64,000 nucleotides of DNA, from positions 124,001 to 188,000 of the forward strand of contig NZ_JACKZA010000005.1 of NCBI RefSeq assembly GCF_015100155.1, read 5' to 3'. Below the pieces are notes generated by a model. The model was not told where the DNA came from and searched no databases. It saw only the letters and a list, made by a program, of their open reading frames with translations. A program made the position numbers and the translations under genes. The stretch is from Acidithiobacillus sp. HP-2 (GTDB lineage: Bacteria; Pseudomonadota; Gammaproteobacteria; Acidithiobacillales; Acidithiobacillaceae). This document shows positions 7,670-53,763 of this stretch, one piece after another; within the stretch, counting starts at the first letter, position 1; each line of letters starts with the position of its first letter.

Positions 7670-7685
7670 AGCAAACAACGTGCCA
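7670..7685 (-). promoter_or_regulatory. Sigma-54 (-24/-12) promoter of the MPWSG-ParA-TPR operon
   Basis: On the minus strand TGGCACGTTGTTTGCT fits the sigma-54 consensus TGGCACGN4TTGCW essentially perfectly. Expected transcription start is near 7658, about 80 bases before the gene start at 7578. This fixes the gene start, because the longer upstream frame would not be transcribed. Confidence 0.85.
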
Positions 7686-8617: not shown

Positions 8618-8694
8618 ATTTCACCTCCTGGATGTAACTTGTTAGATCAAAATCAAAGCCGACCGCCGTCGGTCATCTATAAAACATAGCAGAC

Positions 8695-9968: not shown

Positions 9969-10042
9969 CACATTTGTCCTCCTTTGAAAAGATAACGGCC
10001 CCTGGCGCAGATCTGCAGACAATCTGCGCCAGGGGAATGGCC

Positions 10043-11380
<1,338 letters not shown>

Positions 11381-12543: not shown

Positions 12544-13992
12544 TCAATCTCGGTGTGGCAATGCTTTGGTAAAATGGGGGGACACATGGCCACCTCCACT
12601 GTCGATGGTTTCCGGTTTGTCCCAGAGATGGGTGGAATCCGGAATGTCATTCACGCCTTTTTGGATGACGCGGCTGAAGAAGTACCAGGCGCCCGACCAG
12701 ACGGCCAACTCAAAAATAATGTAGCCCACGAACCAGACCACTTCCTGGCCCAGCGACATGTGGCTGACTCCTTCGTAGGTGCGCATCATGCCAAAGACTA
12801 CCCAGGGTTGCCGACCGATTTCGCGCACCCACCAGCCCGTCCAGATCGCCAGATAGGGTAAAAATGCCGAGAAAACGACGGCCCGGAGAAACCACGGATG
12901 TTGGCGTAGAGCCGTCGCATTCAGCTGGCCCCGCAGGCGCAGCCAGTTACCCCAAAGAGCGACGAGGAACAGGAAAAAGCCAATGGCGACCATGATCCGG
13001 AACGCATAGAAAGGCACCCAGACATCCGGACGATCACGGGCAGGGAAGCTGTCCATACCTGTCACCTTGCCGGTCAAGGTATGGGTTTCCAGCAGGCTCA
13101 GGACGTAAGGAATGGTAATCGCAAATCGGGTACCGTCATTCTGGCTGTTGGGTATGGCAATCAGGTGCCAGCCGGTATTGACCTGCCCATTGGGGAGATA
13201 CGTATGGTAATGCCCTTCCATGGCGGCCAGAGAGGTAGGCTGCGTCTGGGCGACGTCCCGCCCCAGCGTATCCCCCAGATAAATCTGCAAAGGGGTCACA
13301 ATCAGCAGTGCCAGGAGCGCTGGTTTGAGCAGCTTTACAAAAAGTTCGGCGTTGCGGTTCTTGAGGATGAACCAGGCACTGACGCCGGCAAAAACAAAAA
13401 GAGCCAGCTCTACGCAGGCGATCCACATATGTGGAAATCCCCAATGAAAATTGTCGTTATAAATGGCGCTCCACCAGTTGGTGACCTGAAACAGCCCATT
13501 TTTAAAGACGACTCCGTCGGGCGTTTGCATCCAGGAATTCGCCACCAGAATCCAGCCGGCCGATAAAGTGGAAGAAATGCCAACATTGAAGGTGGCAAAA
13601 AGATGCATGGTTTTACTGATTTTTCCCCAGCCGAAAACCATCAGACCAATAAATCCCGCTTCATACATGAATGCGGTGATGGTTTCAAAGCCGAGAATGT
13701 TGCCGAAAAAGGGGCCGACTGCCTGAGAAAATGGCCCATACAGAATCCCGAAGGCCATTTCCATGGTGACACCCGTCGCCACCCCGGCACCGAAATTGAT
13801 TATGAATATTTTTTCGAAAAAACGATTGAGTTTGTACCAGCGCTCATCCCCGGTGCGGAGCCAGAGGACTTCTATTCCGAAAAGCAGCCATGACATGCCA
13901 ATCGTCATGGGCGTCCAGAGAGTATGCAGCGAGGTAATCCAGGCAAAATCGAGACGGCTGAGTAAAACGGGTAACGTATTTTCGATCAACAT
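12544..13992 (-). CDS. cydA: Cytochrome bd quinol oxidase subunit I, cyanide-insensitive (CioA) type
   Basis: A 482-residue subunit carrying the haem ligands H23 (b595), H188 and M334 (b558, in the FRIMV motif), which match the conserved residues of CydA. The Q-loop GRQPWVVFGMMRT at about 393 has the short form seen in CioA proteins and lacks the glutamate found in E. coli GRQPWAIGE, so it belongs to the cyanide-insensitive subgroup. It oxidises quinol and reduces oxygen in the membrane; this type tolerates sulfide and cyanide. First gene of the operon, with AGGAGT before the ATG and a sigma-54 promoter about 80 bases upstream (14072-14087). Confidence 0.95.
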   Translation of the reverse strand: MLIENTLPVLLSRLDFAWITSLHTLWTPMTIGMSWLLFGIEVLWLRTGDERWYKLNRFFEKIFIINFGAGVATGVTMEMAFGILYGPFSQAVGPFFGNILGFETITAFMYEAGFIGLMVFGWGKISKTMHLFATFNVGISSTLSAGWILVANSWMQTPDGVVFKNGLFQVTNWWSAIYNDNFHWGFPHMWIACVELALFVFAGVSAWFILKNRNAELFVKLLKPALLALLIVTPLQIYLGDTLGRDVAQTQPTSLAAMEGHYHTYLPNGQVNTGWHLIAIPNSQNDGTRFAITIPYVLSLLETHTLTGKVTGMDSFPARDRPDVWVPFYAFRIMVAIGFFLFLVALWGNWLRLRGQLNATALRQHPWFLRAVVFSAFLPYLAIWTGWWVREIGRQPWVVFGMMRTYEGVSHMSLGQEVVWFVGYIIFELAVWSGAWYFFSRVIQKGVNDIPDSTHLWDKPETIDSGGGHVSPHFTKALPHRD

Positions 13993-14071: not shown

Positions 14072-14087
14072 AGCATTTTATGTGCCA
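14072..14087 (-). promoter_or_regulatory. Sigma-54 promoter of the cydAB-sqr operon
   Basis: Minus-strand TGGCACATAAAATGCT matches the -24/-12 consensus with exact GG-GC spacing. Expected start is near 14060, leaving a leader of about 70 bases before cydA. Confidence 0.82.
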
Positions 14088-14426: not shown

Positions 14427-14442
14427 TGGCATAATTTATGCT
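14427..14442 (+). promoter_or_regulatory. Sigma-54-like promoter of the divergent 14491-16402 unit
   Basis: TGGCATAATTTATGCT has the -24 GG and -12 GC in exact spacing, with one change in the -24 box (T for C). It places the start near 14454, just before the ribosome site of the small gene at 14491. Confidence 0.7.
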
Positions 14443-14490: not shown

Positions 14491-14787
14491 ATGGATAGTC
14501 ATTTTCTCGATGAGGCACGGGACTTACCTTCAAAGGTCCATGCCTCCCAGGCTGGAAAATCTGGTATGACCCCTATGGAGCGGGTTGTTGCCTGGTCAGT
14601 TTTTCGGACGCGTGCGGAAGCGGAAAATCTGGTTGCTCATGTGCATTTGGCACCGGGTCAGCATCTGGTCGGTGGACATGGTCAGGATAGTGTGGCGCCT
14701 TTCTGGTGGGTCGGAGTACAAGTGAGTGATCTGGGTGAATGGGGACATAGTGCGGCCATCAATAAGCGGGGCCGGAATGGAGACTGA
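14491..14787 (+). CDS. Small hypothetical protein of the divergent sigma-54 unit
   Basis: A 98-residue protein. The ATG at 14491 follows GAAGGAGAAATTCATT, a strong ribosome site. No signal peptide, membrane segment or family motif is recognised; the sequence has a helical N-terminus and a middle rich in His, Gly and Trp (VAHVHLAPGQHLVGGHGQ, then APFWWVG). It overlaps the next gene by 11 bases, so it is coupled to the membrane protein that follows. Expressed divergently from cydAB-sqr under the same type of promoter. Function unknown. Confidence 0.7.
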   Translation: MDSHFLDEARDLPSKVHASQAGKSGMTPMERVVAWSVFRTRAEAENLVAHVHLAPGQHLVGGHGQDSVAPFWWVGVQVSDLGEWGHSAAINKRGRNGD

Positions 14788-15940
14788 TCTGCGGGGGCCT
14801 TTGGTGGATGTTCTCGAAAAATATCGCCACTGGAATGACGTGCTCCACGACATGTACGTTTTAAATCCGGAGGAGGATCTGAGACATTCCGTTCCTGCCC
14901 GGCCAATCGTGCTTGTTTTGGGATCGGCCAGGCAATTGCAAAACTTACTGCATTCATGGCTGAATGCGGTAAGTTTTCCAGAAAATTCAACGGAAATCAT
15001 CCATATTTATCCAAAAGATCCCGAAGAATTGCCAGACCAGGTTTTTGATCCGGAAGTAAGCAGTCTGTCTCTCCAGGTGTTCTCTGGCGTGCAGGCGCTG
15101 CCATGTCCCGATTGGGTTGGCATACCTGCAGATTTTTATCTGGTTTCAGATTTGTCTTCGTTGCCGTCAGAGGCTATACAGTGTCTGAAAAAAATAGCCG
15201 CGAAAGCGCAGATTCTGATCAATCTTGATGTACAAAGCGCACAGTTGAAACATTCTCTCGGTTTACAGGAAGCCGATACCGGTCCGTTGCTGTATCTGGA
15301 GGAATCGTCACTGGCAGTATCACCGCAGCCTGAAAGAACCCAGCCTGTTTTCGGGAGCCAAATCATCCGCTTTGATTCGGTCGATAACGCCGTTACTTAT
15401 TTGCATAAACTTTCCCAATTATGGCCCTGTTTTTTGGCACAGTTGCTTGAGCGTCAGTTGCAGTCCCTGATGCGTGAAACGATTCCACACCTGATGCGCT
15501 GGCGACGGCGCTGGATGTTTTCCGTGGCTTTTCTGGATGTTGTCGTGATTGCGGCGGTGGTGTGGGGGATGACGCAATGGGGTTGGTGGCAGGCACTACT
15601 GCAGATCACTTGGTCTACACTGCCGATCCTGATAGCCACAGCGACCTTTTTTGTTGCCGTTTTTTTGCTGCTGATGAGTATTTTGCTGCTCTGGAGAATT
15701 CATAAGGGGAGTTGTGCACTCTGTTCCATGACGGCTTTATCGTGTCTTGGAAGTGCCGGTGCCGCCCGGCGGAATCCCTTTCGGCGCGCCTTTCTGGAAA
15801 ACACCCGGAGTTTCTGGCAAACGGTGTCTTGCCGTGATCTGTGTGGTTGGAGCAGTGCCCAGCGTGATGATGCCGTTACATTTTGCCAATATTGCCAGGA
15901 TCTGAAGTCACAGTTTTTGACGAGAGACCCGACATCCTGA
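14777..15940 (+). CDS. Two-helix membrane protein with cysteine-pair tail, possible degenerate GTPase-like domain
   Basis: A 387-residue protein starting at the ATG inside the previous gene's last codons. Residues 1-240 are soluble: PIVLVLGSARQLQN near 40 looks like a P-loop position without the GK(S/T), and QILINLDV near 150 sits where a GTPase would have NKxD. I treat this only as a possible degenerate dynamin/GTPase fold. Two long membrane helices follow (about 250-310). The C-terminal tail carries cysteines in pairs (CALC, CRDLC, CQYC), which may bind a metal or sense redox state. Its operon partner is an SCP2-like protein. Not recognised as a known family. Confidence 0.7.
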   Translation: METDLRGPLVDVLEKYRHWNDVLHDMYVLNPEEDLRHSVPARPIVLVLGSARQLQNLLHSWLNAVSFPENSTEIIHIYPKDPEELPDQVFDPEVSSLSLQVFSGVQALPCPDWVGIPADFYLVSDLSSLPSEAIQCLKKIAAKAQILINLDVQSAQLKHSLGLQEADTGPLLYLEESSLAVSPQPERTQPVFGSQIIRFDSVDNAVTYLHKLSQLWPCFLAQLLERQLQSLMRETIPHLMRWRRRWMFSVAFLDVVVIAAVVWGMTQWGWWQALLQITWSTLPILIATATFFVAVFLLLMSILLLWRIHKGSCALCSMTALSCLGSAGAARRNPFRRAFLENTRSFWQTVSCRDLCGWSSAQRDDAVTFCQYCQDLKSQFLTRDPTS

Positions 15941-16006
15941 GAACCGCTTTTTGGTGCGGGCGTGCGTCCGCAAATTTTTGTTCACCTGTATGAGGAGGTA
16001 TTACCC

Positions 16007-16402
16007 GTGGCAGATTTATTTTCACCCGCCTGGATGGCTCGTTTTGTTGAGGAATGGAACAAGGATCCCGAGCTTTCTGACGCTCTTGCCCAGATTGGCT
16101 TTAATTCGGTCATTGCTTATGGTTACCCGGAAGAAGACAGGCCCCGTGCTTTTCTGGTGGTACAAAACGGCAAGGCAACGGCATCGGGCGTGTATACTGA
16201 TCAGCCTTTAAACTGGGATATTCGTGCCCAGCATCCGCAATGGTTGAAGTGGATAGAGAAGTCTCCGGGTATGACGGGCCTGGGCATGGCGTTTACCACC
16301 GGAAAAATCAAATTCAAGGTAGGAGACTACGCGAGCATGCTTAAGGATCCACGTATGGCAGGACCCTTTGTCAAAAGCTTTTCAGCGATGTCCAAAATCT
16401 AG
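16007..16402 (+). CDS. SCP2 sterol-carrier-domain-like protein
   Basis: A 131-residue protein. The GTG at 16007 is chosen over an upstream ATG because GAGGAGGT lies 7 bases before it. It begins MADLFSPAWMARFVEEWN and ends with FKVGDYASMLKDPRMAGPFVKSFSAM, consistent with the SCP2 hydrophobic-ligand-binding fold (about 110-130 residues). Such proteins bind lipids or other hydrophobic molecules in the cytoplasm. In this sulfur regulon the ligand could be a lipid or a hydrophobic sulfur species, but that is speculation. It is the last gene of the divergent unit and faces a terminator hairpin. Confidence 0.72.
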   Translation: MADLFSPAWMARFVEEWNKDPELSDALAQIGFNSVIAYGYPEEDRPRAFLVVQNGKATASGVYTDQPLNWDIRAQHPQWLKWIEKSPGMTGLGMAFTTGKIKFKVGDYASMLKDPRMAGPFVKSFSAMSKI

Positions 16403-16460: not shown

Positions 16461-17840
16461 TTACTGATTTCCAAAATGGTTGTTACTGTCTTTTCCGGAA
16501 ATGCCCAGGCGGGACAAATGCCGCCACAGGGTCACGCGATCAATACCCAGCTCGCGAGCGGCGGCGGCACGATTGCCTCCATGTTTATCCAGTAGCTGCA
16601 AAAGGTTTTCCCGATCATAAATGGCTTCCGGATCGTTTTCTGATCGGCTGGAAGTAACCGATGACCCCAAGTGCATTCTGTCCAGGAAGTCTTTGGGGAA
16701 ATCACTGTCACTGATTTCCGGTCCGGCACTGCAGATGGCCACATATTCCATCACGTTGCGGAGTTCACGCACATTTCCCGGCCAGGGATAATCCAGGAGC
16801 AGATGTTTGGCCGCTGAGCCAAGCCTTTTCTTGTGTCCTCCCGTAGTAATTTTCAAAAAGTGTTCGGCGAGGAGCATGATGTCCGAAGGCCGTTCACGCA
16901 GCGCCGGAATGCGGATAGGGATCACATTTAACCGATAAAACAGATCACTCCGAAAATCCCCACTTTCTACCAGTTCCTTGAGATTGCGATTGCTGGCAGC
17001 AACCACGCGTACATCGACCTGGTGGGTTTTGGTACTGCCAACCGGTTCATAGCGCATGTCTTCCAGCACCTTCAGCAGTTTGGCCTGATGATGTTTGGGC
17101 AGTTCGCTGACTTCATCGAGGAAGAGCGTGCCACCATCGGCTGCCGCAAAACGGCCGATGCGATCTGTCACTGCTCCCGTAAAAGCGCCTTTCACGGATC
17201 CGAAAAACTCGGCTTCAAATAAATTATCGGGGATGGCGGCACAATTCACTTCCACCAGGGATTTTTTGGAGCGGTTACTCTGTTGATGCAGTAAGCGGAC
17301 CATCAAGCCTTTACCAGACCCCGATTCGCCCTGAAAGATGACGCTGGCATCGGTGGCCGCGACTTGCGCAATCAATTCGAGGGCATCGCGCATGTGCGGA
17401 TCATCCGTAATAAAACCCACACTGCGGGTGCCGCCCAGAATCCGCTCGGCATGACGCAATTCGGAGACATCTTCGATGAAAAAAATGCGGCGTTTATGTT
17501 GTTTGCGCTCTACCAGTCGGGTTCTGATCTGCAGGACCTTGTGATCGCCTTCGGCAACGGGAAGCAGGTGATCCCAGCGGACGCAGCCAGTTTGCGGTCG
17601 ACTCACGGCATCTTCCTGACCAGCAGCAATGGCCGCTCGCACCAGTTCTTTCTGGACGCTACCTCCAGGTATGCTGCGCAGGTGCTCCAGTTGATGCGTG
17701 TTCAACAAGATTTTGGCGGCAGCGTTGCAGAATTCAATTTTTCCCTGAATGTCGGTCAGCAGAATGCCGGCGTCCATGGAATCCAGTAATTCTGGCAAAA
17801 CCTCACAGAGGGTTTCCAGTTCAGTGCTCAGCGACGCCAT
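16461..17840 (-). CDS. Sigma-54-dependent transcriptional activator (PAS - AAA+ - Fis HTH)
   Basis: A 459-residue enhancer-binding protein. The start at 17840 has a strong AAGGAG site; an in-frame ATG at 17888 would add 16 residues and overlap the previous gene. A PAS-like sensor (about 10-130, LLDSMDAGILLTDIQGKIEFCN) precedes the AAA+ domain with GESGSGKG (Walker A), GAFTGA (sigma-54 contact loop), TLFLDEVSEL (Walker B) and an arginine-finger region. A Fis-type HTH ends the protein (GGNRAAAARELGIDRVTLWRHL). There is no receiver domain, so the PAS domain or a ligand controls it. It closes the long RND-MPWSG-TPR operon. I infer that it binds TGTTGCAACA and activates the four sigma-54 promoters here, including its own. 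Confidence 0.93.
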   Translation of the reverse strand: MASLSTELETLCEVLPELLDSMDAGILLTDIQGKIEFCNAAAKILLNTHQLEHLRSIPGGSVQKELVRAAIAAGQEDAVSRPQTGCVRWDHLLPVAEGDHKVLQIRTRLVERKQHKRRIFFIEDVSELRHAERILGGTRSVGFITDDPHMRDALELIAQVAATDASVIFQGESGSGKGLMVRLLHQQSNRSKKSLVEVNCAAIPDNLFEAEFFGSVKGAFTGAVTDRIGRFAAADGGTLFLDEVSELPKHHQAKLLKVLEDMRYEPVGSTKTHQVDVRVVAASNRNLKELVESGDFRSDLFYRLNVIPIRIPALRERPSDIMLLAEHFLKITTGGHKKRLGSAAKHLLLDYPWPGNVRELRNVMEYVAICSAGPEISDSDFPKDFLDRMHLGSSVTSSRSENDPEAIYDRENLLQLLDKHGGNRAAAARELGIDRVTLWRHLSRLGISGKDSNNHFGNQ

Positions 17841-17874
17841 TTTTTTCTCCTTGGCCAGCACCTCGCCATCAGTC

Positions 17875-18375
17875 TCAGTGGTTGCCATAAGCATTCCCCT
17901 GATATGGATAGCCACTTTGATATTGCGGATTATATCCCGGTGGAACTCCATCATAGGCTTCCTGGCGTGGAGGGGGTAGAGGCGTTCTGGGTCCATAGCG
18001 CGGATCATTGTGATTGAAGGGCAACATGCCACTCAGAAAAGAAAAGGGTGGGGTGATGTTACGATTCAGGCTCCAGAATTCAGCCTGCATCTGTCCGGTG
18101 GCTCTGGCCATGTAATTGGTCGAATGGGTCATCTCAGCCATGTTTTGTGACATGCTGTTCATGTTACGTTGAATGTTGGGACTCATTTTCTGGAACTGTG
18201 CGGTCATTTCATGAAGGTCATGGGACATTTCCACGGCCAGATAAAACTCATAAGCGGCGAGGACCAGAAAGGCGACGAGTGCCGCGTAGACGATCAGTCT
18301 GAGCTGGCGGTCAGAAAGGCCAGCGATATGATGCTGAGACTGCGAGTGTGTTTCCGTAGTCGGTTGTTCCGCCAT
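17875..18375 (-). CDS. Single-pass membrane protein with coiled-coil and Pro/Tyr-rich tail
   Basis: A 166-residue protein. After a polar N-terminus there is one membrane helix (about 28-48, LIVYAALVAFLVLAAYEFYL), then a Met/Asn-rich amphipathic stretch likely to form a coiled coil (MSPNIQRNMNSMSQNMAEM), then a Pro/Gly/Tyr-rich tail (PRYGPRTPLPPPRQ, PPGYNPQYQSGY) resembling the tails of the neighbouring MPWSG proteins. AGGAGA lies 9 bases before the ATG. The start overlaps the preceding TPR gene by 65 bases. No known family recognised; it may link an envelope structure to the inner membrane. Confidence 0.78.
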   Translation of the reverse strand: MAEQPTTETHSQSQHHIAGLSDRQLRLIVYAALVAFLVLAAYEFYLAVEMSHDLHEMTAQFQKMSPNIQRNMNSMSQNMAEMTHSTNYMARATGQMQAEFWSLNRNITPPFSFLSGMLPFNHNDPRYGPRTPLPPPRQEAYDGVPPGYNPQYQSGYPYQGNAYGNH

Positions 18376-18823
18376 GATGGTTTGTCTCCTGATGATTTAA
18401 TTGGATCGTCAGCTGATAGGCTGCATTTGGATTGATTTGTGCGACGATGGGAATAAGTGTGCGGGCTCCACGCAGGTTTTTCTCCCGGATCAGATTCCGA
18501 AAGCTATGAATGTAATCATTTTCCGCCGCGTAAAATGCGCCTATCCGGTAATAAACATTGCCCTGTTCTCCATAGAGATCTGCCAGATACCGCTGGGGGG
18601 CAAGATGAATCAATTGTGCATATTCCTGAATGGCGCGCAATGGGTTGCCTTGCCAGTAGGCTTGGCGTGCCTGCATCAGCTGCTGAAGGTAGTGATGGTT
18701 CCATCCGGATTTTGGACGTAACAAATCGGATGTAACCCCGGCTTGTGCAGTGGCCATGCACACTATAAACCCGACAGACAGCAGCATAGCTGTCCATCGA
18801 GTTGATTTTGTGAAATTCACCAT
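18311..18823 (-). CDS. Exported TPR-like protein (family copy 2)
   Basis: A 170-residue protein with an N-terminal signal peptide (AMLLSVGFIVCMATAQAG) and the family block QLMQARQAYW, AIQEYAQLI, YGEQGNVYYRIG, TLIPIVAQINP. The end (LAVSASYRWPF) has the aromatic-terminal pattern of outer-membrane beta-strands, which is suggestive only. Its ATG overlaps the stop of copy 3 by one base. Shares ancestry with the copies at 5.6, 18.8 and 19.7 kb by motif order. Confidence 0.8.
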   Translation of the reverse strand: MVNFTKSTRWTAMLLSVGFIVCMATAQAGVTSDLLRPKSGWNHHYLQQLMQARQAYWQGNPLRAIQEYAQLIHLAPQRYLADLYGEQGNVYYRIGAFYAAENDYIHSFRNLIREKNLRGARTLIPIVAQINPNAAYQLTIQLNHQETNHHGGTTDYGNTLAVSASYRWPF

Positions 18824-19650
18824 CAGGCAGGCGGCATCCCGGTTTCGGCTTCGGGGGCATGGGACAGCGCCTCCTGCACTTTTTGTGCTTCCGCAGGATC
18901 CAGACGTCCGAGAATAGGAATCAGCGCGGCACCATCGGCATAACGTCCGGCATGAATCAGCTGCATGGCAGCCTGACCATAAGCGTTGCCCGCCTGGTGA
19001 TAGTGACCGGTCATGTACAACACATTACCCATTTCGCCATAGGCAGCGGGGGAGTCAGGCGCTTCCTGAATCAAATGATGATAATCCGCAATAGCACCGG
19101 CATAGTCGTGATGCCAGAAAGCCCCGCGCGCCTGCATGAGCAACTTGGTCTGATCGGCGGTCAACGGTTTGGTATTTTGGGTGATGGCCGCAATGCTGGG
19201 GGCACTGGTGACATGCAGGACTTTTTGCGCGGGTTTAGCTGCAGCTACCTGGGTATGATCGGGCTTATTGGCGGTGATGGCCCAAATAAACAGAATCACA
19301 ATGATGACCAGCAAGATCAAAATGATCAGTGGGTATCCCCAAAAGCGACTCAAAAATCCCTCTTTTTGCGCAGGAGGGGGAGGGGGCGGAGAGTAACTGC
19401 TATAACTGGAACTTGACGCCGCAGCGGCAGCGGCTGCTGCAGCCGCTGCTGATGCATCTGTATCGGTACCCGAATGGGTCTCTGAATGAGTATAGTGCTG
19501 CTGTTCTGGTTCATGCTGGCTTTGCGTAACCTGGTGGTATTCGGTATCCGTGTCACTATGCAAGTTGGCTTCTGATTCCGGCATGGATTCTTTGCCGCTG
19601 GTCGGGGCATCTTCTGAATGTAACTGCGGTTCTTCTCGGATGTCACTCAT
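18823..19650 (-). CDS. Membrane-anchored TPR-like protein with poly-Ala/Ser/Pro linker (family copy 3)
   Basis: A 275-residue protein. Residues 1-65 are acidic, His/Ser/Thr-rich and probably disordered; then come an 11-alanine run, serine/tyrosine-rich residues and six prolines. One membrane helix (about 108-128, LIILILLVIIVILFIWAI) leads to the TPR-like domain (LLMQARGAFW, AIADYHHLI, YGEMGNVLYMTG, LIPILGRLDP). The topology suggests a cytoplasmic disordered tail and a periplasmic TPR domain. Coupled to copy 2 by a one-base overlap and 19 bases downstream of copy 4. Function unknown; the cytoplasmic tail could be a docking region. Confidence 0.85.
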   Translation of the reverse strand: MSDIREEPQLHSEDAPTSGKESMPESEANLHSDTDTEYHQVTQSQHEPEQQHYTHSETHSGTDTDASAAAAAAAAAAASSSSYSSYSPPPPPPAQKEGFLSRFWGYPLIILILLVIIVILFIWAITANKPDHTQVAAAKPAQKVLHVTSAPSIAAITQNTKPLTADQTKLLMQARGAFWHHDYAGAIADYHHLIQEAPDSPAAYGEMGNVLYMTGHYHQAGNAYGQAAMQLIHAGRYADGAALIPILGRLDPAEAQKVQEALSHAPEAETGMPPA

Positions 19651-19669
19651 AATTCATTACTCCTTATGG

Positions 19670-20281
19670 TTAACGTGCCAGTGCCTGGCGGATGATGGTG
19701 GCCTGATTCGGGTCCAGAGAACTGATCAGGGGTAATAATGCTGCGGCAGAAGGATATTGATGCGTTGCAATTAGCGTTCGGGCAGCACCGGAATAGGCCT
19801 TGCCAGCAGATAAAGGATGACCAGTCTGGTAATAAATGTTGCCTAATTCGCCATACAGTTGCGGTACTTCAGGCAGTTGATCGATTAATGCCTGATAATC
19901 GGCAATGGCGGCTTTAACATCATGTTCCCAAAACGCCCGTCGTGCAGCCATCAGCAGAGCATACTGAGACTCGGTAAGGTTTTTCGGAAAAAGGATTTTA
20001 ACGTGCGGGGTAACCGGGGTTGCTTGCTGTACAGCCACGCCCGGCTGTAGTTTTGGTGTGGTGGCCGTGATCGGCACTGTTGCAGGATGGGCTACCGGAG
20101 TGGGTTTGCTTTCCTGTTTTTCCCACCAATGGTGCATTGCCTGCCATTTTTGCACCGTGTATTGCCGGGTCGTCTGCCAGTCATGACGCCAGAGTTGCGG
20201 ATCCTGTATGGCAGCAATCACTACCAGCACAATGATCACCAGAATGATAAACCCAATGATTCTACCCAAAATTCGTTTCAT
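19670..20281 (-). CDS. Membrane-anchored TPR-like protein (family copy 4)
   Basis: A 203-residue protein with an N-terminal membrane anchor (residues 6-26, IIGFIILVIIVLVVIAAIQ), a His/Trp-rich segment, a Pro/Thr/Val-rich linker and the family domain (LLMAARRAFW, AIADYQALI, YGELGNIYYQTG, LLPLISSLDP). The domain is close to copy 1, suggesting repeated duplication. It lies 97 bases downstream of an MPWSG gene. Confidence 0.83.
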   Translation of the reverse strand: MKRILGRIIGFIILVIIVLVVIAAIQDPQLWRHDWQTTRQYTVQKWQAMHHWWEKQESKPTPVAHPATVPITATTPKLQPGVAVQQATPVTPHVKILFPKNLTESQYALLMAARRAFWEHDVKAAIADYQALIDQLPEVPQLYGELGNIYYQTGHPLSAGKAYSGAARTLIATHQYPSAAALLPLISSLDPNQATIIRQALAR

Positions 20282-20378
20282 GGCTGGCCTCTATTTGGCA
20301 CATGTGCTTTTGATTTCAAAAAATATTTGAACCCTGCTGGCATCGCGGTGCATCTGCAGCCCGCAGGATTTTTGTCCA

Positions 20379-20906
20379 TCACGGATACCCGTAACCGGGA
20401 CGGTAGGGTCCGGGTGGCGGGGCATATTGCTGGCTGTTGTTGGCGTATTGCGGTGGTGCTGAAGGAGCGATGTAAGCATTATTATCGGCATTGTTATAAT
20501 TGCCGTATGCAGGATATCCCGATTCCGCAGGTGGGTAGGCATTTTCAGGGGCGTAATCCCGGTATCCGTAACCATTGTAGGCTCCGCCACCATAACCACC
20601 TCCGTAGTACCCGTTGTATGGCTGGCTGTAACCACCCCAGCGACCACTACTGAATTGCATGGGGCCGCCGTGCGGTCCATTAAAACTCATGCTGCCCATG
20701 TTCCAGGGTCCACTGCTGCCCGTAAAGGGACCTCCATAACCACTGAAAGGGCCGCTGTCGCTGTAAAATGGGCTACTGTAACCACTCCAGGGCATGTCAT
20801 TCCAGGGTGCCCATCCCCAGGCAAAAGCAGGCGAAGCTGTCAGTAAACCCGCACATCCGAGTGTCGCTGCCAAAGCGGCTATTTTTCCAAAATATTTCAC
20901 ATTCAT
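20379..20906 (-). CDS. Secreted Gly/Pro/Trp-rich repeat protein ('MPWSG' family copy 2)
   Basis: A 175-residue protein; the start at 20906 has GGAGCAGATGTA before it. The signal peptide ends near ASPAFA, followed by WGWAPWNDMPWSGYSSPF. It then follows copy 1 almost motif by motif: SGPFSGYGGPF, SGPWNMGSMSFNGPHGGPM, GGYSQPYNGYYGGG, then a Tyr/Pro/Asn-rich tail ending PGYGYP. The identical ordering with copy 1 (7.0 kb) shows duplication. Probably periplasmic or surface-exposed. Confidence 0.87.
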   Translation of the reverse strand: MNVKYFGKIAALAATLGCAGLLTASPAFAWGWAPWNDMPWSGYSSPFYSDSGPFSGYGGPFTGSSGPWNMGSMSFNGPHGGPMQFSSGRWGGYSQPYNGYYGGGYGGGAYNGYGYRDYAPENAYPPAESGYPAYGNYNNADNNAYIAPSAPPQYANNSQQYAPPPGPYRPGYGYP

Positions 20907-20992
20907 TACATCTGCTCCTTGATCATTTTGCGCCACAAGCCTTGCAGTTGGCGCCACTGCAATGTCACTCCCCAAACTTGGGAATTATGGTG

Positions 20993-21514
20993 TTACCAGG
21001 TACTCCAGGGGCTCATGGGACCCATTGGCGACATGGGGTTCATGGAGGACATCGGACTCCAGGGCATGCCACCACCCCAAGGCATACCGCCACCACCGCC
21101 CCAAGGCATGCCACCACCCCAAGGCATACCGCCTCCACCGCCCCAAGGCATACCGCCACCACCGCCCCAAGGCATACCACCACCCCAGGGCATCGCATCT
21201 CCGGACCAGGGGCGTCCGTAGCCGCCAAAGGGGCTGCCATTGAAATTCATGGGACCCCAATGGGGAAAAGTCATACGGAAACTCCCCATACTCCAGGGAC
21301 CACTATTACCGTGCCAAGGACCTCCATAACCAGACCACGGCCCCGAATCCCCTTGCATGGGACCGGAATAACCGCTCCAGGGCATACTGTTTTGCCAGCC
21401 GGACCAAGGCATTTCGCCTCCCCAGGGCCCCCAGGCATAAGCAGCAACAGGTACGGAAAGTGTTCCCATTGCGGCAGAGAGAATGGCTACCTTTACCCAT
21501 TTTGCTTTTTGCAT
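20993..21514 (-). CDS. Secreted MPWGGG-repeat protein ('MPWSG' family copy 3)
   Basis: A 173-residue protein with AAGGAG before the ATG and a signal peptide ending AAYA. The mature part begins WGPWGGEMPWSG, shares the SGPMQGDSGPWSGYGGPW block with copies 1 and 2, and then carries about seven tandem MPWGGG/MPWGGGGG units (DNA repeat about 21075-21195) and a Met/Ser/Pro tail. Such low-complexity tandem repeats can change in number by slippage, so size variants between strains are expected. Regular Trp-Gly-Pro spacing suggests an extended or self-associating structure. Confidence 0.87.
   Translation of the reverse strand: MQKAKWVKVAILSAAMGTLSVPVAAYAWGPWGGEMPWSGWQNSMPWSGYSGPMQGDSGPWSGYGGPWHGNSGPWSMGSFRMTFPHWGPMNFNGSPFGGYGRPWSGDAMPWGGGMPWGGGGGMPWGGGGGMPWGGGMPWGGGGGMPWGGGMPWSPMSSMNPMSPMGPMSPWSTW
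21075..21195. repeat. Tandem coding repeat CCACCACC(G)CCCCAAGGCAT
   Basis: Roughly seven imperfect units of 15-21 bases, each built around CCCCAAGGCAT, encode MPWGGG units of the gene above on the opposite strand. The units alternate between two lengths, so the protein alternates MPWGGG and MPWGGGGG. Confidence 0.85.
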
Positions 21515-21559
21515 TGCGTTCTCCTTTTTTCAGGCGGACCTATATCCCGATATTTCCGT

Positions 21560-22663
21560 TTATGGATAACCATAACCAGGCTGCGGGCCATAAGACTGAG
21601 GTGGCCGGGCTTCGGGAGGGGGTCCATAGGGTGATGGCCCGTAGGCTGGTGCTCCATAATCTGGCCCAGCATATTGTTGGCCGTATTGAGGCGGGCGGGC
21701 GTAAGGATTAGGCCCGTAAGGTGATGGTCCGAAAGCTGGTGCACCATAACCGGGTCTGGGCGCATTTTGCCAAGGCATGCTGGGGCCTTGCCAGGGCATG
21801 GGGTCCATGGGGCCAAAGTTTGGGCGGCCATAAGGGGATTCACCATTGGGCCCTTGCGGGTAAGCCCCGTTCGGAAAAGCACGACCATTCATGGGGTTAC
21901 CAGGTGCGCCATATTGTGGGCCGTACTGTGGTGGCTGGGCATAAGGGTTGGGCCCATAGGGAGTTGGTCTTCCGTAGGCCGGTGCGCCATAGCCGGGCCT
22001 GGGTGTGTTTTGCCAGGGCATGTTGGGGCCCCGGTAGGGCATGGACTCCATGGGGCCAGCATTCGGCCCGCCATAAGCTGGTCCTGGGGTATATTGGGGT
22101 GCGTATCCTTGCTGGGGGGCATATCCCTGTGGTGGCATCGCCATCGGGAAAGAAGCAGGAGGCGCAGTATCCAGGGCACTTTCGTGCGGCCCATTGGGGT
22201 AGGGGCCCGGAGGTGGGGGAACCCAGTCTGCTACTTCGTTGAATGTGGCTGTGGGCATGGCAGCTTCATGGTTGCTCCAGCCTGGAGCGGGTGGCGTGCT
22301 CTGGGGGGCTTGTTGTTCTGCGCTGTTCCATGCGCTGTCTGCATTTTCGGTTGGTGCAGGCCAGCCGTTGGTCTCGTAGGGATAGCTGGATGTATGGTGC
22401 GGTGCATATCCATGCCACTCGGCATAGGTGGAGTCTGCTGGCATTGGCGCTGGCAGTGCTTGATCTGGACGGATCTCCGGCCAGCCGGAAGATGTTGCGC
22501 TATTGGCCATGCCAGGACCTGGCATTCCCGAATATGGGCTGGAGTAGGGCGTGTCCACGGACGCCAGGGCCTGGGCTTGCGTGCCCAGTGCCGTACAGAC
22601 CGCCACCCCCAGCCAGAACAGGCGCTTGTGGCTACGGGGTGAAAGGGTTGTGTGGCTTGTCAT
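21560..22663 (-). CDS. Large secreted Pro/Gly/Tyr-rich repeat protein of the MPWSG locus
   Basis: A 367-residue protein starting at 22663 (GGAGG 9 bases upstream). The signal peptide ends near AQALAS. The N-terminal third is Ser/Pro/Trp-rich. From about residue 165 two long imperfect repeats follow, each with the order PMxSMPYRGPNMPWQ / PMDPMPWQGPSMPWQ, NTPRPGYGAPAYG, PYGPNPYAQPPQYG. It ends PGYGYP like copy 2. No catalytic features. Likely an extracytoplasmic structural or coating protein. It begins 4 bases after the RND pump stop, so it is tightly linked to it. Confidence 0.85.
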   Translation of the reverse strand: MTSHTTLSPRSHKRLFWLGVAVCTALGTQAQALASVDTPYSSPYSGMPGPGMANSATSSGWPEIRPDQALPAPMPADSTYAEWHGYAPHHTSSYPYETNGWPAPTENADSAWNSAEQQAPQSTPPAPGWSNHEAAMPTATFNEVADWVPPPPGPYPNGPHESALDTAPPASFPMAMPPQGYAPQQGYAPQYTPGPAYGGPNAGPMESMPYRGPNMPWQNTPRPGYGAPAYGRPTPYGPNPYAQPPQYGPQYGAPGNPMNGRAFPNGAYPQGPNGESPYGRPNFGPMDPMPWQGPSMPWQNAPRPGYGAPAFGPSPYGPNPYARPPQYGQQYAGPDYGAPAYGPSPYGPPPEARPPQSYGPQPGYGYP

Positions 22664-22667: not shown

Positions 22668-25600
22668 TTAATCCTCCTTTTTCGGTTTGGAACCGGATGA
22701 CCGTAAATGAATGCCACGCGCTTTGGCGCGGGGTGAAAGTTGCACAGGTGTTTCAGCGGTTGTGGTTGCTACGGGGTTGCTCTGCCTGCTGACCGGACTG
22801 TTGGCCGATCCACTGGCACTTTCCGAAGTTGAAACGTGAGGATTCGCTGGTCCTTGCGATGATCCATCCGGTCCCTGAGGGGGACTCACGGGCCCTGAAG
22901 GCGACTGCGGACCCGGCGCTTCAGGCTTGTTGTGGGCGGCCGGGCGCTTCATCAGCCAGGCCCAGAGTTGACCGAGCAAAGCCAGCAGGATTTTGGTAAT
23001 GGCCCGGAAAAAGGCGCGAATATCCTGTCCGATCATTTCCAGGGTCATGGTCAGGGGACCAGCATCTTTGGGTGGCGTATCCTGAACCAGTGCTGCAGAT
23101 TGAATATCGCTTCGCGCCAGACTATCCCGGGGAGACAGGGAGACCTGCATGCTGGCGGGCGCAAACGGGAAGGGGGGTGGATTGTTCGACTGCTTGTCAC
23201 CCAGATCCATCCCCGCCGGACAGAAGGCAGCACGACCGCTGACGCAGCCCAAAGGAATGACCAGCAGGGTAAGGATGGTCGAAATCATGACCCCGAAGAG
23301 CAGGGAAATGCCCATCCCCCGGAAAATCGGGGAGGTGATGATTTCTGCGGAACCGAGCATGAGCGCCAGTGCCGTAATCACAATGGGCCGGGTACGGGTC
23401 GCGCAGGCTTCAATCAGGGCATCCATGACCGGCATGCCTTCGGCCACTCTTTGCTGGGAGTAATCCACCAGCAGAATGGAATTGCGCACGATGATGCCGG
23501 CCAGAGCAATGAAACCGATCATGGAGGTGGCCGTAAAGCTCGCCCCAAACAGCCAGTGACCGGGTAAAATTCCGATCAGGGTCAGAGGAATGGGCACCAT
23601 GATAATGGCGGGGATGACAAAATTCCCGAATTCCCAGACTACCAGCATGTAGATGAGGACAATGGCCACGGCAAAGGCAATGCCCATATCCCGGAAGGTC
23701 TTGTAGGTCACGGTCCAGGCCCCGCCCCACTTGATCGTGGCATGATTACCGCTGGGAACGCTGATCCAGTCGATGCCCAGCGGGTGTCCATCGGGGGTCA
23801 GATAACCGGACAGGGCATCTTCGACTTCCAGCATGCCGTACAGCGGGGCATCCAGACGTCCCCTGCTGCCTGCCGTCACATATTCAACGGGTTTGAGATC
23901 CTGCTGGTAGATGGGTTGTTCGGCTCTCTCGCGATCAAAATGGCCCAGCGTATAAAGAGGTACGGCGCCATAACTGACGGAGGGTACGGGAAGTGCCGCC
24001 AGACTATAGACATTACTGCGCAGGGCCAGAGGCGCCTGCAGCACGGCCGGTACCGCAAGATTCTGACCATAGGGGGTAAAGTTACCCAGCTTGTAGCCAC
24101 CGAGGGTCATCGCCAGGGTTTCGTTGAGGGCGCTGGGCCGTATACCGGCCATACCGGCCTTGATGGCATTCAGATGAAAGTGCCAGTAGTCATGGGGGGC
24201 TTCCAGGGTGTTATCCACCTCGGTGAGGTTTTTGGCCCGGGCAAATTCGGCCGTCACCTGCCGGGTGACCGCGTCGCGGATGGCGGCAGAAGGGCCATAA
24301 ACTTCGGCCACCACCGGCGCCAAAACCGGTGGCCCCGGTGGACTTTGCACGACGACAATATGGGCCTGGTGTTGTGCCGCTATGGGCGTAATCAGCCGCC
24401 GCGCGACGACGGCAAGTTCGGAACTGGAGGCGCTGCGTTCGGCTTTATCCAGCAACTGCACATGAATCATGGCCTGCCAGGGCTGGTTGCGCAGGTAGTA
24501 ATGCCGCACCATGCCATTGAAATCATACGGTTCCGGCGTGCCCACATAACTTTGCAGCGCCCGGACATCCTTCATCCCCTGTAAGCTCTGTACCACCTCG
24601 GCCGTCACATTGGCGGTTACCGGCATGGCGGTACCTGCCGGCATATTGATGACGACGTTAAAGGCACTGGAATTACCATGGGGCAGCATGGTGAAAGGCA
24701 CCCACTCCACCAGAAACAGCGCCAGACTGGCAAAAAACGCGACCACAATGCCACCCAGAAACAGGCGACCATAAAATTTGCGGCGAATCAGCGGAATCAG
24801 GGTGTTCCGGAAAAATTTGCGCAACCAGGTGGCCTGCCGGTGTTCGCCCTTATGCATACGTTCCAGGGTTTTCAGGCTGGGTTTGAAACGCAGCATCAAC
24901 CAGGGGGCCAGAGCGAAGGCCGTGAACAGGGAGAAGAGCATGGCCACAGAACCCAGTACCGGAATGGGGGCCATGTAAGGGCCCATCATCCCGCCCACAA
25001 AACCCATGGGCAGCAAGGCGGCAATGACCGTAAAAGTCGCCAGAATGGTGGGATTACCCACTTCGCGCACGGCATCAATGAGGGTTTCAGTGGACGTCGT
25101 CCCTTCCTGCAGCCAGCGGCGATACACGTTCTCGACAATCACGATGGAGTCGTCGACGAGAATACCGATGGAGAAAATCAACCCGAACAGGCTGACCCGA
25201 TTGATGGTAATTCCCAATAACCAGGCCGAGAATACGGTAATCAGCAAAATCAGCGGGATGGTGATGACGACGACAGCGGCCGCCCGCCATCCCAGGGCCA
25301 GCAGAATCAGCAGGGTGACGGCTGCCGTGGCGACAAAAAGCTTGAAGAGCAGGGAATCGACCTTGGCATTCGCTTTTTTGCCGTTATCGCGGGTGATGCT
25401 GACATGCACATTACCGGGAATGACCGTTCCTTCCAGACTGTGCATTTTCTGGATGAGTGCCCGGGCGACCGTCACCCCGTTGCTGCCGGCAATTTTGGCC
25501 AGGGCAATGGTGACCGCCGGAGCGCCATCCACTTCGGGCTGATTTTTGCCAGCCTTCTGGTAATAAGTCACCAGACTGTGGGGATCGCTGGGGCCGAGCC

Positions 25601-26450
25601 GGACCTGCGCCACCTGAAACAGATACACCGGTTCTCCTTCATACACCCCGACCACCAGATTGCGGACTTCTGCCGGCGTGCGCAGAAACTGTCCGGTGAC
25701 AATGCGCATCTGCATGTTTTGCACATCGGTCCGCCCGGTTTCCGTCTGGGCATTGGAAGCCTTGATCGTTTGTGCGACCTGCTGCGGGGTGATGCCATAA
25801 GCGGCCAGGCGGCCCGGATGAATGTCGACGGTCAGTGTTTCCTGAGGACCGTGGACAATAAAACTCTCCCCGGTCTGGGGAACCTGCTTGAGATGCTGCA
25901 ACGCGGTGCGGGCAATTTCGTTGAGGGTGGCGGGACCGACCTCCCGGGACCAGAGCGTAAACGTCATGAAGGGGACGCTGTTGATGCCCTTGGCACGGAC
26001 CAGAGGATGGGTGGCTCCCGGCGGAATCCGGTTCATGTTGGCGGCGAGTTTGTTGTAGACCTCCACCAGGGAGGGACCCATCCGTCTGCCCACCTGAAAG
26101 CGCACGGTGACCATGGATTCGCCGCGATTCGACACCGAATACACGTGGCGCACGCCGGGCAGCTCGCTCATCATGCGTTCCAGAGGATCACTGACCATGC
26201 GCGAGACTTCGGCAGGGGAGTGCCCCGGATAACCCACAAAAATATCAATCATGGGCACGGAGATTTGCGGGTTGGAAGCTCTGGGCGTGGAAATCAGGCC
26301 GAGAATGCCCGCCGCGAGCAGCACAATCAGGAGCAGGGGCGCCAGCGGCGAACTGACAAAAATCTTCGCGATAGAACCGGCCAATCCCAGACTGCGCGAG
26401 GGTCTGGTTTCCGGGGTTTCCGGCTCAGGGGTTTGGCAACCGTTATGCAT
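22668..26450 (-). CDS. RND-family efflux transporter with a Pro-rich C-terminal extension
   Basis: A 1260-residue inner-membrane pump. Twelve-helix RND layout is visible: first helix near 35-55, the helix cluster with FSIGILVDDSIVIVENV (TM4 acidic pair that carries protons) near 430, a second periplasmic domain, then TM8-12 with ALAGIIVRNSILLVDYSQ and ALALMLGSAEI. Usual RND length is about 1020-1060; here about 200 extra residues follow TM12, with a basic amphipathic segment (FFRAITKILLALLGQLWAWL) and a Pro/Ser/Gly-rich tail. The adaptor gene precedes it by 5 bases; no outer-membrane channel gene is present. Substrate unknown; export of a reduced-sulfur or hydrophobic product for the envelope structure is a hypothesis from context. 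Confidence 0.92.
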   Translation of the reverse strand: MHNGCQTPEPETPETRPSRSLGLAGSIAKIFVSSPLAPLLLIVLLAAGILGLISTPRASNPQISVPMIDIFVGYPGHSPAEVSRMVSDPLERMMSELPGVRHVYSVSNRGESMVTVRFQVGRRMGPSLVEVYNKLAANMNRIPPGATHPLVRAKGINSVPFMTFTLWSREVGPATLNEIARTALQHLKQVPQTGESFIVHGPQETLTVDIHPGRLAAYGITPQQVAQTIKASNAQTETGRTDVQNMQMRIVTGQFLRTPAEVRNLVVGVYEGEPVYLFQVAQVRLGPSDPHSLVTYYQKAGKNQPEVDGAPAVTIALAKIAGSNGVTVARALIQKMHSLEGTVIPGNVHVSITRDNGKKANAKVDSLLFKLFVATAAVTLLILLALGWRAAAVVVITIPLILLITVFSAWLLGITINRVSLFGLIFSIGILVDDSIVIVENVYRRWLQEGTTSTETLIDAVREVGNPTILATFTVIAALLPMGFVGGMMGPYMAPIPVLGSVAMLFSLFTAFALAPWLMLRFKPSLKTLERMHKGEHRQATWLRKFFRNTLIPLIRRKFYGRLFLGGIVVAFFASLALFLVEWVPFTMLPHGNSSAFNVVINMPAGTAMPVTANVTAEVVQSLQGMKDVRALQSYVGTPEPYDFNGMVRHYYLRNQPWQAMIHVQLLDKAERSASSSELAVVARRLITPIAAQHQAHIVVVQSPPGPPVLAPVVAEVYGPSAAIRDAVTRQVTAEFARAKNLTEVDNTLEAPHDYWHFHLNAIKAGMAGIRPSALNETLAMTLGGYKLGNFTPYGQNLAVPAVLQAPLALRSNVYSLAALPVPSVSYGAVPLYTLGHFDRERAEQPIYQQDLKPVEYVTAGSRGRLDAPLYGMLEVEDALSGYLTPDGHPLGIDWISVPSGNHATIKWGGAWTVTYKTFRDMGIAFAVAIVLIYMLVVWEFGNFVIPAIIMVPIPLTLIGILPGHWLFGASFTATSMIGFIALAGIIVRNSILLVDYSQQRVAEGMPVMDALIEACATRTRPIVITALALMLGSAEIITSPIFRGMGISLLFGVMISTILTLLVIPLGCVSGRAAFCPAGMDLGDKQSNNPPPFPFAPASMQVSLSPRDSLARSDIQSAALVQDTPPKDAGPLTMTLEMIGQDIRAFFRAITKILLALLGQLWAWLMKRPAAHNKPEAPGPQSPSGPVSPPQGPDGSSQGPANPHVSTSESASGSANSPVSRQSNPVATTTAETPVQLSPRAKARGIHLRSSGSKPKKED

Positions 26451-26455: not shown

Positions 26456-27592
26456 TTACTCCCCGGAAGACGCGCTGGTCTGGAGCTGATAACCGGACCC
26501 GATTCCGGCGGGGGGATCATTGACGATGATCTGACCCACGCGCAGTCCGGCCAGCACCTGAATCTGCCCATCCGGCAAGGGTCCACCCAGGCGCAGCACA
26601 TGCATTTCGGTCACCCCCTGATGATCCACCAGCACCGAGGGCAAAGAAGTCCCGGGAATGAGGGCGCTCCGGGGAATGGCCGGTTCATTCTGGGCAGAGC
26701 TGCCGTAACTGGGCAGACTGATGGTCGCGTACGCCCCGACACGAATGGCGGCATTGCGGGGCAGACTGACCTTGACGGCCACCGTATGGGTTTGGGGATT
26801 GGCCTGGGGGGCGACATGAACGACCCTGCCACTCACCATGCCCGCGTTGTCTCCCAGATGGACGGGCAGGGATTGCCCGGGGTTCAGATTGCCCGCCAGA
26901 CTTTCCGGCACCTTGACCAGCAGTTGCTTGGGTCCACCACTGCCCAGCACCATGAGCGGCTGACCGGGCTGCACAATATCCCCCGGATTAACCTCTTTTG
27001 CGAGGACTACGCCCTGAAAGGGGGCGATGGAAACCGAGTTGTTCATCTCCGCCTCAATCTGACGGATTCTCCAGGCTGAAGCCTCCAGCTGGGTTTGCGC
27101 CTTGAGGGCGGTAGCTTTCCGGTTTTCCAGATTGGATTGATAGGTGGCCCAGGGATTCTGGCTGTTGCCCATCATGGCCTTGAAGCCCTGGCCCATCCAG
27201 GTAAAGGGGTTCATGAAAGAGGGGGGATCATAACTGTACAGCTGATATCCGTACTGGGAATAACCGTTGTGCAGGGCGACTTCATCGGCCTGATAGGCCG
27301 CAATGGCCTGGGCTTTCTGGGCAAGCAGCTGATCGTCATCCAAAGCCACCAAAGGCTGGCCCGGTGCAATGGGCATTCCGGCTTCACCCGCCACAAATTT
27401 GACCCGGCCTGGCAACTGGGCACGCAGGGTGACCGTAAACGCCGGGATGACCCGGCCCCCCAGTACGGGGCCAATGCCGGGCGCCGTTTGCACCGTTACG
27501 AGGCTCGGCGCGGCCGCCAGGGCCGTGCCAAAGCCCATGCCCAAAAGGATCGGGCCGCAAACTAATGCATAACGCCAGGTGTTTGTTTTCAT
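26456..27592 (-). CDS. RND membrane-fusion (periplasmic adaptor) protein
   Basis: A 378-residue adaptor starting at 27592 (AAGGAA seven bases upstream; the longer frame begins at the promoter). Signal peptide ends TALAA. The barrel-sandwich halves flank an unusually tyrosine/proline-rich helical hairpin region (SYDPPSFMNPFTWMGQGF), with the second lipoyl half SIAPFQGVVLAKEVNPGDIVQPGQPL and a beta-barrel domain after it. It pairs with the downstream RND pump and is the first gene of the ten-gene operon under the sigma-54 promoter at 27654. Confidence 0.88.
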   Translation of the reverse strand: MKTNTWRYALVCGPILLGMGFGTALAAAPSLVTVQTAPGIGPVLGGRVIPAFTVTLRAQLPGRVKFVAGEAGMPIAPGQPLVALDDDQLLAQKAQAIAAYQADEVALHNGYSQYGYQLYSYDPPSFMNPFTWMGQGFKAMMGNSQNPWATYQSNLENRKATALKAQTQLEASAWRIRQIEAEMNNSVSIAPFQGVVLAKEVNPGDIVQPGQPLMVLGSGGPKQLLVKVPESLAGNLNPGQSLPVHLGDNAGMVSGRVVHVAPQANPQTHTVAVKVSLPRNAAIRVGAYATISLPSYGSSAQNEPAIPRSALIPGTSLPSVLVDHQGVTEMHVLRLGGPLPDGQIQVLAGLRVGQIIVNDPPAGIGSGYQLQTSASSGE

Positions 27593-27653: not shown

Positions 27654-27669
27654 AGCAGAAACTGTGCCA
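27654..27669 (-). promoter_or_regulatory. Sigma-54 promoter of the RND-MPWSG-TPR-regulator operon
   Basis: Minus-strand TGGCACAGTTTCTGCT matches the -24/-12 consensus with exact spacing. Expected start near 27643, about 50 bases before the adaptor gene. Confidence 0.8.
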
Positions 27670-44045: not shown

Positions 44046-44079
44046 CTTCAAGACTCCGGATGTGCGCTCGGGTTGTCAG

Positions 44080-53759: not shown

Positions 53760-53763
<4 letters not shown>

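Follow-up and report, generated by a model that had tools for sequence, protein, structure and literature searches.

A gene cluster of Acidithiobacillus suggests an undescribed system that makes and positions sulfur particles

Sulfur globules are an old observation and their coat proteins one of about thirty years' standing, but we know of no account of how a cell assembles and supplies its globules or divides them between its daughters. Here we analysed a window of 64,000 nucleotides (G000:C33:124001-188000) from the 3.2-Mb genome of Acidithiobacillus sp. HP-2 (G000). It carries a cluster with secreted Gly/Pro/Trp-rich proteins (MPWSG), an RND pump, candidate TPR scaffolds and a ParA-type ATPase, which points to an undescribed machine that makes and places sulfur particles. 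With a secreted Pro/Gly/Tyr-rich protein (PGY) and a coiled-coil protein (CC) included, it is reasonably probable that the MPWSG/PGY-RND-TPR-CC-ParA genes are the acidophile version of a system for sulfur-globule assembly and positioning. The evidence includes the place of MPWSG, which in related loci is held by members of the Pfam sulfur globule protein family (SGP, PF17228), and the distribution of CC across genomes. An earlier annotation made from the letters of the window (the sequence-only reading) called the system undescribed, and the passages available to us from the literature searched, outside which most subscription papers lay, indeed hold no description of the cluster. Such a widely conserved candidate gene set makes globule building, feeding and sharing testable in ordinary laboratory strains, and MPWSG is a candidate sulfur-coat protein for the acidophiles of bioleaching.

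Composition of the cluster

The main unit extends from 27592 down to 16461, with all genes on the minus strand and small gaps or overlaps between them, in the order MFP-RND-PGY-MPWSG_3-MPWSG_2-TPR_4-TPR_3-TPR_2-CC-sigma54 activator (MFP, membrane-fusion protein). It is larger than the sequence-only reading had it, in which the RND pump, ParA, CC, the sigma54 activator and a dynamin-like relic were not listed. Its genes are given below, with the open reading frame (ORF) as part of the evidence where stated.

26456-27592, minus strand: MFP of the RND system, first gene of the main unit, ATG at 27592 (Pfam HlyD_D23 2.4e-16, HlyD_3 1.1e-14)
22668-26450, minus strand: RND exporter of the AcrB/AcrD/AcrF family, 1260 aa (Pfam ACR_tran 1.2e-143; phmmer relatives in PDB are MexB, CmeB and AcrB)
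21560-22663, minus strand: PGY, secreted, in the slot directly after RND, with an internal VPPPPGPYPNG motif (ORF and motif)
20993-21514, minus strand: MPWSG_3, secreted, Gly/Pro/Trp-rich (ORF, alignment and profile)
20379-20906, minus strand: MPWSG_2, secreted, with a C-terminal PPPGPY motif (ORF, alignment and motif)
19670-20281, minus strand: TPR_4, N-terminal hydrophobic helix and a TPR domain with YGELGN (Pfam, YGExGN; AlphaFold mean pLDDT 80)
18823-19650, minus strand: TPR_3, long Ser-rich N terminus, hydrophobic segment and TPR domain (ORF, Pfam, YGExGN)
18311-18823, minus strand: TPR_2, N-terminal hydrophobic, signal-like segment and divergent TPR domain (ORF, YGExGN; Pfam TPR at E=0.11 only)
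17875-18375, minus strand: CC, with a hydrophobic helix, a long helical stretch and a P/G/Y-rich tail (alignment across relatives)
16461-17888, minus strand: sigma54-dependent activator with PAS, AAA+ and Fis-type helix-turn-helix domains (Pfam Sigma54_activat 6.9e-65, HTH_8 1.8e-09); the ORF is listed from 18032 and the ATG at 17888 is a guess from the frame

At a second locus the order is MPWSG_1-ParA-TPR_1.

7015-7578, minus strand: MPWSG_1, secreted, starting after GGAGG (ORF, alignment)
6388-7002, minus strand: ParA-type ATPase with a KGGSGKST deviant Walker A (Pfam CbiA 2.4e-12; phmmer matches to PDB chains of Soj, ParF, ParA and McdA, E 9e-5 to 8e-4)
5581-6354, minus strand: TPR_1 (Pfam TPR_16 2.7e-07; YGExGN)

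These lists bear out three earlier claims, namely that three MPWSG proteins have a common motif order, that four TPR proteins have the YGExGN block, and that both families stand together at two separate loci. MPWSG_1 and MPWSG_2, whose starts were refined by eye, are 43 and 45% identical to MPWSG_3 and conserve the motif order, with the core GYGGP..GPWxMG. At E<=0.001 the genome as a whole has no match to a profile of the three other than these copies themselves (2.6e-68 to 4.9e-80), and a single-protein search of the genome added one place, at E=0.06. An NCBIfam search with MPWSG and PGY gave no family and one chance match at E=0.3; relatives of MPWSG_3 were absent from plasmid records at E<=0.01, and relatives of CC from viral contigs.

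PGY, which starts 4 bases past the RND stop, had been described as a longer relative of MPWSG. The long protein is real, whereas its kinship to MPWSG found no support: it is not among the matches of the whole-genome MPWSG_3 search up to E=10, it has no match in Pfam or NCBIfam at E<=1, and a profile of slot-1 proteins, the counterparts of PGY in other genomes (built without PGY), aligned to MPWSG with an hhalign probability of 19. What PGY and MPWSG have in common is a PPPPGPY/F motif. Every one of the 14 slot-1 proteins that we examined carries PPP(P)GPY/F, and so does each of the 8 MPWSG_2-type proteins examined, there 2 to 7 residues before the C-terminal end, while residue shuffles yielded it in 0 to 4.6% per protein; the proteins were chosen after a looser form of the motif had been listed, with L127 and L128 (PPPAGPY variants) omitted, and the result is a record of conservation, not the outcome of a blind test. 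Of the 20 extended loci introduced below, 10 have the looser form in a slot-1 protein.

The window TPR proteins are predicted to have the TPR helical-hairpin fold, as judged from Pfam matches, some of them below the curated cut-off, and from the model of TPR_4, whose best Foldseek matches in PDB are designed TPRs. Secreted and membrane-anchored forms were distinguished by eye, and AlphaFold places N-terminal helices in the 19670 copy. A TPR profile found the four window copies in the whole genome along with a short fragment (G000:C22:284672-284827; L047:1477-1680). This fragment is a degenerate copy of the TPR_1 C terminus, flanked by genes that we take to be mutS and pyrC, and comparable short matches occur in G001 and G006. 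The AlphaFold model of CC is a single helix (residues 22-103) of low confidence (pLDDT 56).

ACR_tran spans residues 28-1067 of the 1260 of the RND protein and a partner MFP gene is present, as in AcrB-type RND exporters. The window pump has ACR_tran in common with AcrB, MexB and CmeB, but differs from them in its linkage to secreted coat-like genes, ParA and CC and in an extra C-terminal tail. ParA and MinD ATPases carry a deviant Walker A of the form KGGxxKS/T, and the KGGSGKST encoded in 6388-7002 is of this form.

Six of the 17 genomes of the genus match the MPWSG profile; the same six match the TPR profile, which in a seventh finds a short fragment only. This is not the distribution of families that occur outside sulfur oxidisers and never together. 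Among the 31 genomes of the order, 11 carry MPWSG, and rusticyanin was found in 0 of these 11 versus 8 of the 20 others (Fisher P 0.028, kinship ignored). Apart from small losses, the same gene order recurs in A. montserratensis, A. marinus, A. sulfurivorans, A. sp. YTS05, Igneacidithiobacillus, an A. caldus-type genome (G017, which carries the cluster and which we take to be A. caldus) and two SulCav contigs from metagenome-assembled genomes. The main unit of A. sulfurivorans has one MPWSG and not two, and in the YTS05, Igneacidithiobacillus and A. caldus-type loci the pump has an additional MPWSG-TPR pair next to it in divergent orientation. The cluster is also present in the Acidihalobacter-like genomes G180 and G385. 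In a metagenome-assembled Acidihalobacter genome (L073:3649-5496), three YGELGN TPR domains, encoded by separate genes in Acidithiobacillus, stand in a single 615-aa protein.

Sulfur globule proteins and the wider system

CC served as the marker gene with which the wider system was traced. Its profile matched 75 of 369 gammaproteobacterial genomes taken evenly from the class, and MPWSG was found in 3 of the same 369. Loci were extended in 20 of the 75 CC-positive genomes, mostly the top-scoring ones with G180 and G385 included, and a scan also took in 29 short loci, many of which fall on the same places. The 20 extended loci, several of which end at contig ends, follow one common order. ParA was found in 18 of them, a dynamin-like GTPase in 16, RND in 12 and TPR in 17, or in 18 when the threshold is relaxed. 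Between RND and ParA lie genes for secreted low-complexity proteins, which are Pro-rich (often with PPPPGPY/F), NPW or Gly/Tyr/Trp proteins, and sometimes a gene for a 250-residue protein with a weak DUF4412 match.

The Gly/Tyr/Trp slot protein matches Pfam SGP, reaching the cut-off of 26.7 bits at L145 (28.7 bits) and L134 (26.7 bits) and falling below it at L126 (22.5 bits). Across the sample, Pfam SGP (E<=0.01) was found in 62 of 369 genomes, 55 of them over the cut-off, and in 0 of 14 control genomes. It occurs in 56 of the 75 CC-positive versus 6 of the 294 CC-negative genomes (Fisher P 1e-42), and SoxB (E<=1e-30) in 67 versus 89 of the same sets (Fisher P 4e-21); the genomes are related and not independent, so that both P values overstate independence and are a guide only. 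At this threshold 5 of the 14 controls match the SoxB model too, all of them below its cut-off. The cut-off is exceeded in 148 of the 156 SoxB genomes, and when the remaining 8 are read as CC-negative the comparison becomes 67 of 75 versus 81 of 294. In at least 12 genomes CC has SGP no more than 5 kb away (10 of these matches exceed the cut-off), and in at least three more at 13 to 21 kb, the distances having been paired by hand among the matches listed. Together with SGP in the corresponding slot, these associations strongly support the link to sulfur that had been proposed. G085 and G221, which belong to one family, each have nine Pfam SGP matches and no CC match; SGP thus occurs apart from the cluster too. 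In a phylum sample of 339 genomes CC was found in 41, of which 40 lie outside Gammaproteobacteria, and the eight of these outside-class loci that were read hold RND in five, ParA in six and an SGP-like protein in five (by our own profile, not Pfam).

MPWSG and SGP occupy a common genomic place: MPWSG fills the SGP slot in Acidithiobacillaceae and in G180 and G385, and a Pfam SGP match is absent from G000, G180 and G385. The profile-profile comparison that the sequence-only reading had proposed gave a probability of 96 (score 61) for MPWSG against the SGP-slot profile, compared with scores of at most 29.2 for 14 other profile pairs of these loci, and a second comparison gave 97 over 45 columns, mostly signal peptide. 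The likeness is confined to the N terminus, that is, to the signal peptide plus some 20 residues of the mature chain with its AWGPWGG start, so that homology to SGP is unproven and a common origin is possible. MPWSG proteins are likewise small, secreted and rich in Gly and aromatic residues as are SgpA, SgpB and SgpC of Allochromatium vinosum (PF17228), and the PF17228 members between RND and ParA in related loci resemble them in an AWWGPW-type N terminus. They differ from SGP in their own GYGGP..GPWxMG core, in having no PF17228 match and in their several copies with TPR partners, the comparison being with slot SGP and not with A. vinosum SgpA-C. A search for a phototroph (PF00124) among CC- or SGP-positive genomes, made to reach A. 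vinosum, gave 0 of 22 and 0 of 56.

A P-loop dynamin-like GTPase in related loci is indicated by a Dynamin_N match (1e-13) in L126, the one protein tested. The window carries a degenerate copy.

14777-15940, plus strand: degenerate dynamin-like protein that lacks a P-loop and retains the C-terminal membrane part (E=1.8e-9 against a profile built on 14 GTPase ORFs of related loci, which had been selected by the P-loop itself); the ORF is listed from 14726 and the ATG at 14777 is a chosen start

Its C-terminal part aligns well (28.6 bits), an N-terminal piece scores 4.0 bits, an L084 relative matches at 7.2e-13, and the profile alignment found no P-loop GTPase domain in the window copy. The alignment covers the C-terminal part of these GTPases, and the Acidithiobacillus form thus keeps a remnant of the dynamin-like component as well. 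SUP05 genomes are said to be without dynamin in the portion of the sulfur-globule literature that we could consult.

Putative promoters, proposed mechanism and alternatives

The -24/-12 promoter pattern can be written TGGCAYN6TGCT. This strict form, fixed only once sites had been seen, occurs four times in 64 kb, where chance would give 0.54 sites and none of 100 shuffles yielded as many as four. Each site stands at the head of a unit (MFP, MPWSG_1, cydA and the dynamin-relic unit). The pattern is present in 4 of 12 window upstream regions tested. At other loci, several of them from close relatives, 17 of 21 counterpart genes have it upstream.

27654-27669, minus strand: TGGCACAGTTTCTGCT, -24/-12-like site upstream of MFP; the same 15 bases recur ahead of MFP at 5 further loci of the Acidithiobacillus type
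7670-7685, minus strand: TGGCACGTTGTTTGCT, upstream of MPWSG_1; perfect match to the -24/-12 consensus used and the sole site with 0 mismatches in 64 kb
14072-14087, minus strand: TGGCACATAAAATGCT, upstream of cydA (TGGCAYN6TGCT scan)
14427-14442, plus strand: TGGCATAATTTATGCT, preceding a small ORF with its ATG at 14491 and, beyond it, the dynamin-like relic (TGGCAYN6TGCT scan)
12544-13992, minus strand: first gene of a unit preceded by a -24/-12-like site; we take it to be cydA-like (ORF; the next gene matches Cyt_bd_oxida_II)
11443-12531, minus strand: cytochrome bd oxidase subunit II (Pfam Cyt_bd_oxida_II 2.6e-72)
10043-11374, minus strand: putative SQR-like flavoprotein (Pfam Pyr_redox_2 1.3e-16), presumably the SQR that the sequence-only reading also named

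These sites are putative promoters, and the four units may form a sigma54 regulon. The small ORF (MDSHFLDEARDL...) runs on the plus strand from 14491 to at least 14766, about 50 bases past the -24/-12-like site and ahead of the relic.

Zero-valent sulfur is left by SQR and by Sox without SoxCD. In the mechanism that we propose, oxidation of sulfide or thiosulfate in the periplasm and at the inner membrane would leave such sulfur, and the sigma54 activator of the cluster would turn on the pump unit, MPWSG-ParA-TPR, the cydAB and SQR-like genes and the dynamin-relic unit together. The RND/MFP pump might then draw hydrophobic sulfur from the membrane or periplasm into a growing particle, which the secreted MPWSG and PGY would coat as SGP does elsewhere. 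TPR and CC proteins in the inner membrane could grip this coat from the periplasmic side, perhaps via PPPPGPY/F, and the cytoplasmic ParA ATPase may position or share out the particle sites, as McdA does for carboxysomes. The substrate of the pump, the coating, the tethering or binding and the placing are roles that we infer, beside the observed gene order, families, sites and co-occurrence. Like McdA and other ParA systems, the window has a ParA-type ATPase (with Soj, ParF and McdA as phmmer matches), here beside genes proposed for a protein-bounded inclusion; unlike the carboxysome cargo of McdA, the cargo would be periplasmic, so that ParA would need membrane-spanning adaptors. A more sweeping proposal, which we put forward tentatively and with considerable doubt, is that a Pseudomonadota-wide cluster (RND, secreted coats, ParA and CC, joined in many Gammaproteobacteria by TPR and the dynamin-like GTPase) assembles and supplies a periplasmic sulfur organelle with a protein coat and sees to its spatial inheritance, with ParA acting across the membrane via CC/TPR adaptors, and that acidophiles swapped the classical coat for MPWSG.

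The published record was consulted through partial texts. A. thiooxidans forms intracellular sulfur globules (PMC7082400, available part), and where sulfur globule proteins and RND were sought together, the RND passages found concern metal efflux. The accessible text of PMC10386293 describes SgpD (Alvin_2515) of A. vinosum as Pro-repetitive, secreted and located on globules, its gene lying beside one for a hydrophobic/amphiphilic exporter, and the likeness to PGY and slot-1 proteins is one of description only. We dropped the identification of slot-1 proteins with SgpD, since in that text sgpD is its own transcription unit.

Several observations weigh against the globule assembly and positioning reading. 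On the side of the proteins, MPWSG has no match to any Pfam family at E<=10 (10 proteins), and the mature parts of MPWSG and SGP align with a probability of 2.7 and a score of 19.4, equalled by 1 of 200 column shuffles. On the side of distribution, besides the kinship of the genomes mentioned above, an SGP match is missing from 19 of the 75 genomes with CC (three of these 19 carry MPWSG), six genomes have SGP without CC, 89 of the 156 SoxB-positive genomes are without CC, and TPR and the dynamin-like gene were found in 0 of the 8 outside-class loci. A two-mismatch -24/-12 scan of the window gave 22 sites versus 30 expected, with no enrichment. Among published observations, the separate transcription of sgpD counts here too, and loss of SgpD left growth on sulfide and globule formation unaffected (PMC10386293, as far as its text was available). 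The seen part of PMC3440390 reports that A. caldus is without intracellular globules and that A. ferrooxidans accumulates them, the reverse of what the distribution of the cluster would lead one to expect, as the A. caldus-type genome carries the cluster and rusticyanin-positive genomes are without MPWSG. Deletion of an SQR-RND operon in Azospira suillum left the rate of H2S oxidation unchanged (PMC5358917, available passages), an operon that may or may not correspond to the present one.

The A. caldus report and the absence of MPWSG from the eight rusticyanin-positive genomes of the order would suit a role in contact with extracellular sulfur. In that case MPWSG and PGY would reach the outer surface and there stick to solid sulfur outside the cell or coat it, with RND, TPR and CC aiding their export, and no internal globule would be involved. 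This is unlikely: Pfam SGP proteins occupy the same slot elsewhere, the globules of A. vinosum are described as periplasmic in the text seen of PMC10386293, and ParA with membrane-anchored CC and TPR proteins suits a site at the inner membrane better. It has also to be asked whether the cluster serves sulfide-induced efflux and envelope protection, the RND pump expelling metal sulfides or toxic polysulfide derivatives and the secreted proteins shielding the envelope. RND pumps of Azospira suillum are up-regulated during H2S oxidation, for which its authors proposed detoxification (PMC5358917, same passages), and the putative promoter motif is common to cydAB and the SQR-like gene; such a role, however, leaves ParA, the dynamin-like GTPase and Pfam SGP genes in one kept order unexplained, and we hold it to be quite improbable. 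Finally, MPWSG may owe its likeness to chance composition, as lineage-specific low-complexity secreted proteins with a role unrelated to SGP that were caught in an RND operon. The lack of a Pfam match and a mature part that is not clearly SGP-like agree with this, but the slot, the CC/TPR/ParA partners and the core motif are conserved in Acidithiobacillaceae and the more distant G180 and G385, and the MPWSG-SGP profile score stands apart from the 14 other pairs, which makes chance composition very improbable.

Neighbouring genes

One further gene adjoins the cluster.

15962-16402, plus strand: conserved neighbour, adjoining the cluster in most Acidithiobacillaceae loci and also at L142 and L165 (L165:267-770)

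It matched 0 Pfam families at E<=0.1. We would take it for an 'SCP2'-like protein and 9102-10022 for 'DUF1641', names that had no Pfam match at the cut-offs used. In the cydA-headed unit, after the SQR-like gene, 8030-10022 holds a DUF308-like protein, PsiE and a 306-aa protein without a Pfam match. Farther along the window, 43263-62511 is a defence-like island with matches to the PADLOC models DpdE, DruE, DrmMI/type IIG methyltransferase, PDC-M65A/B, PDC-M04A and HNH.

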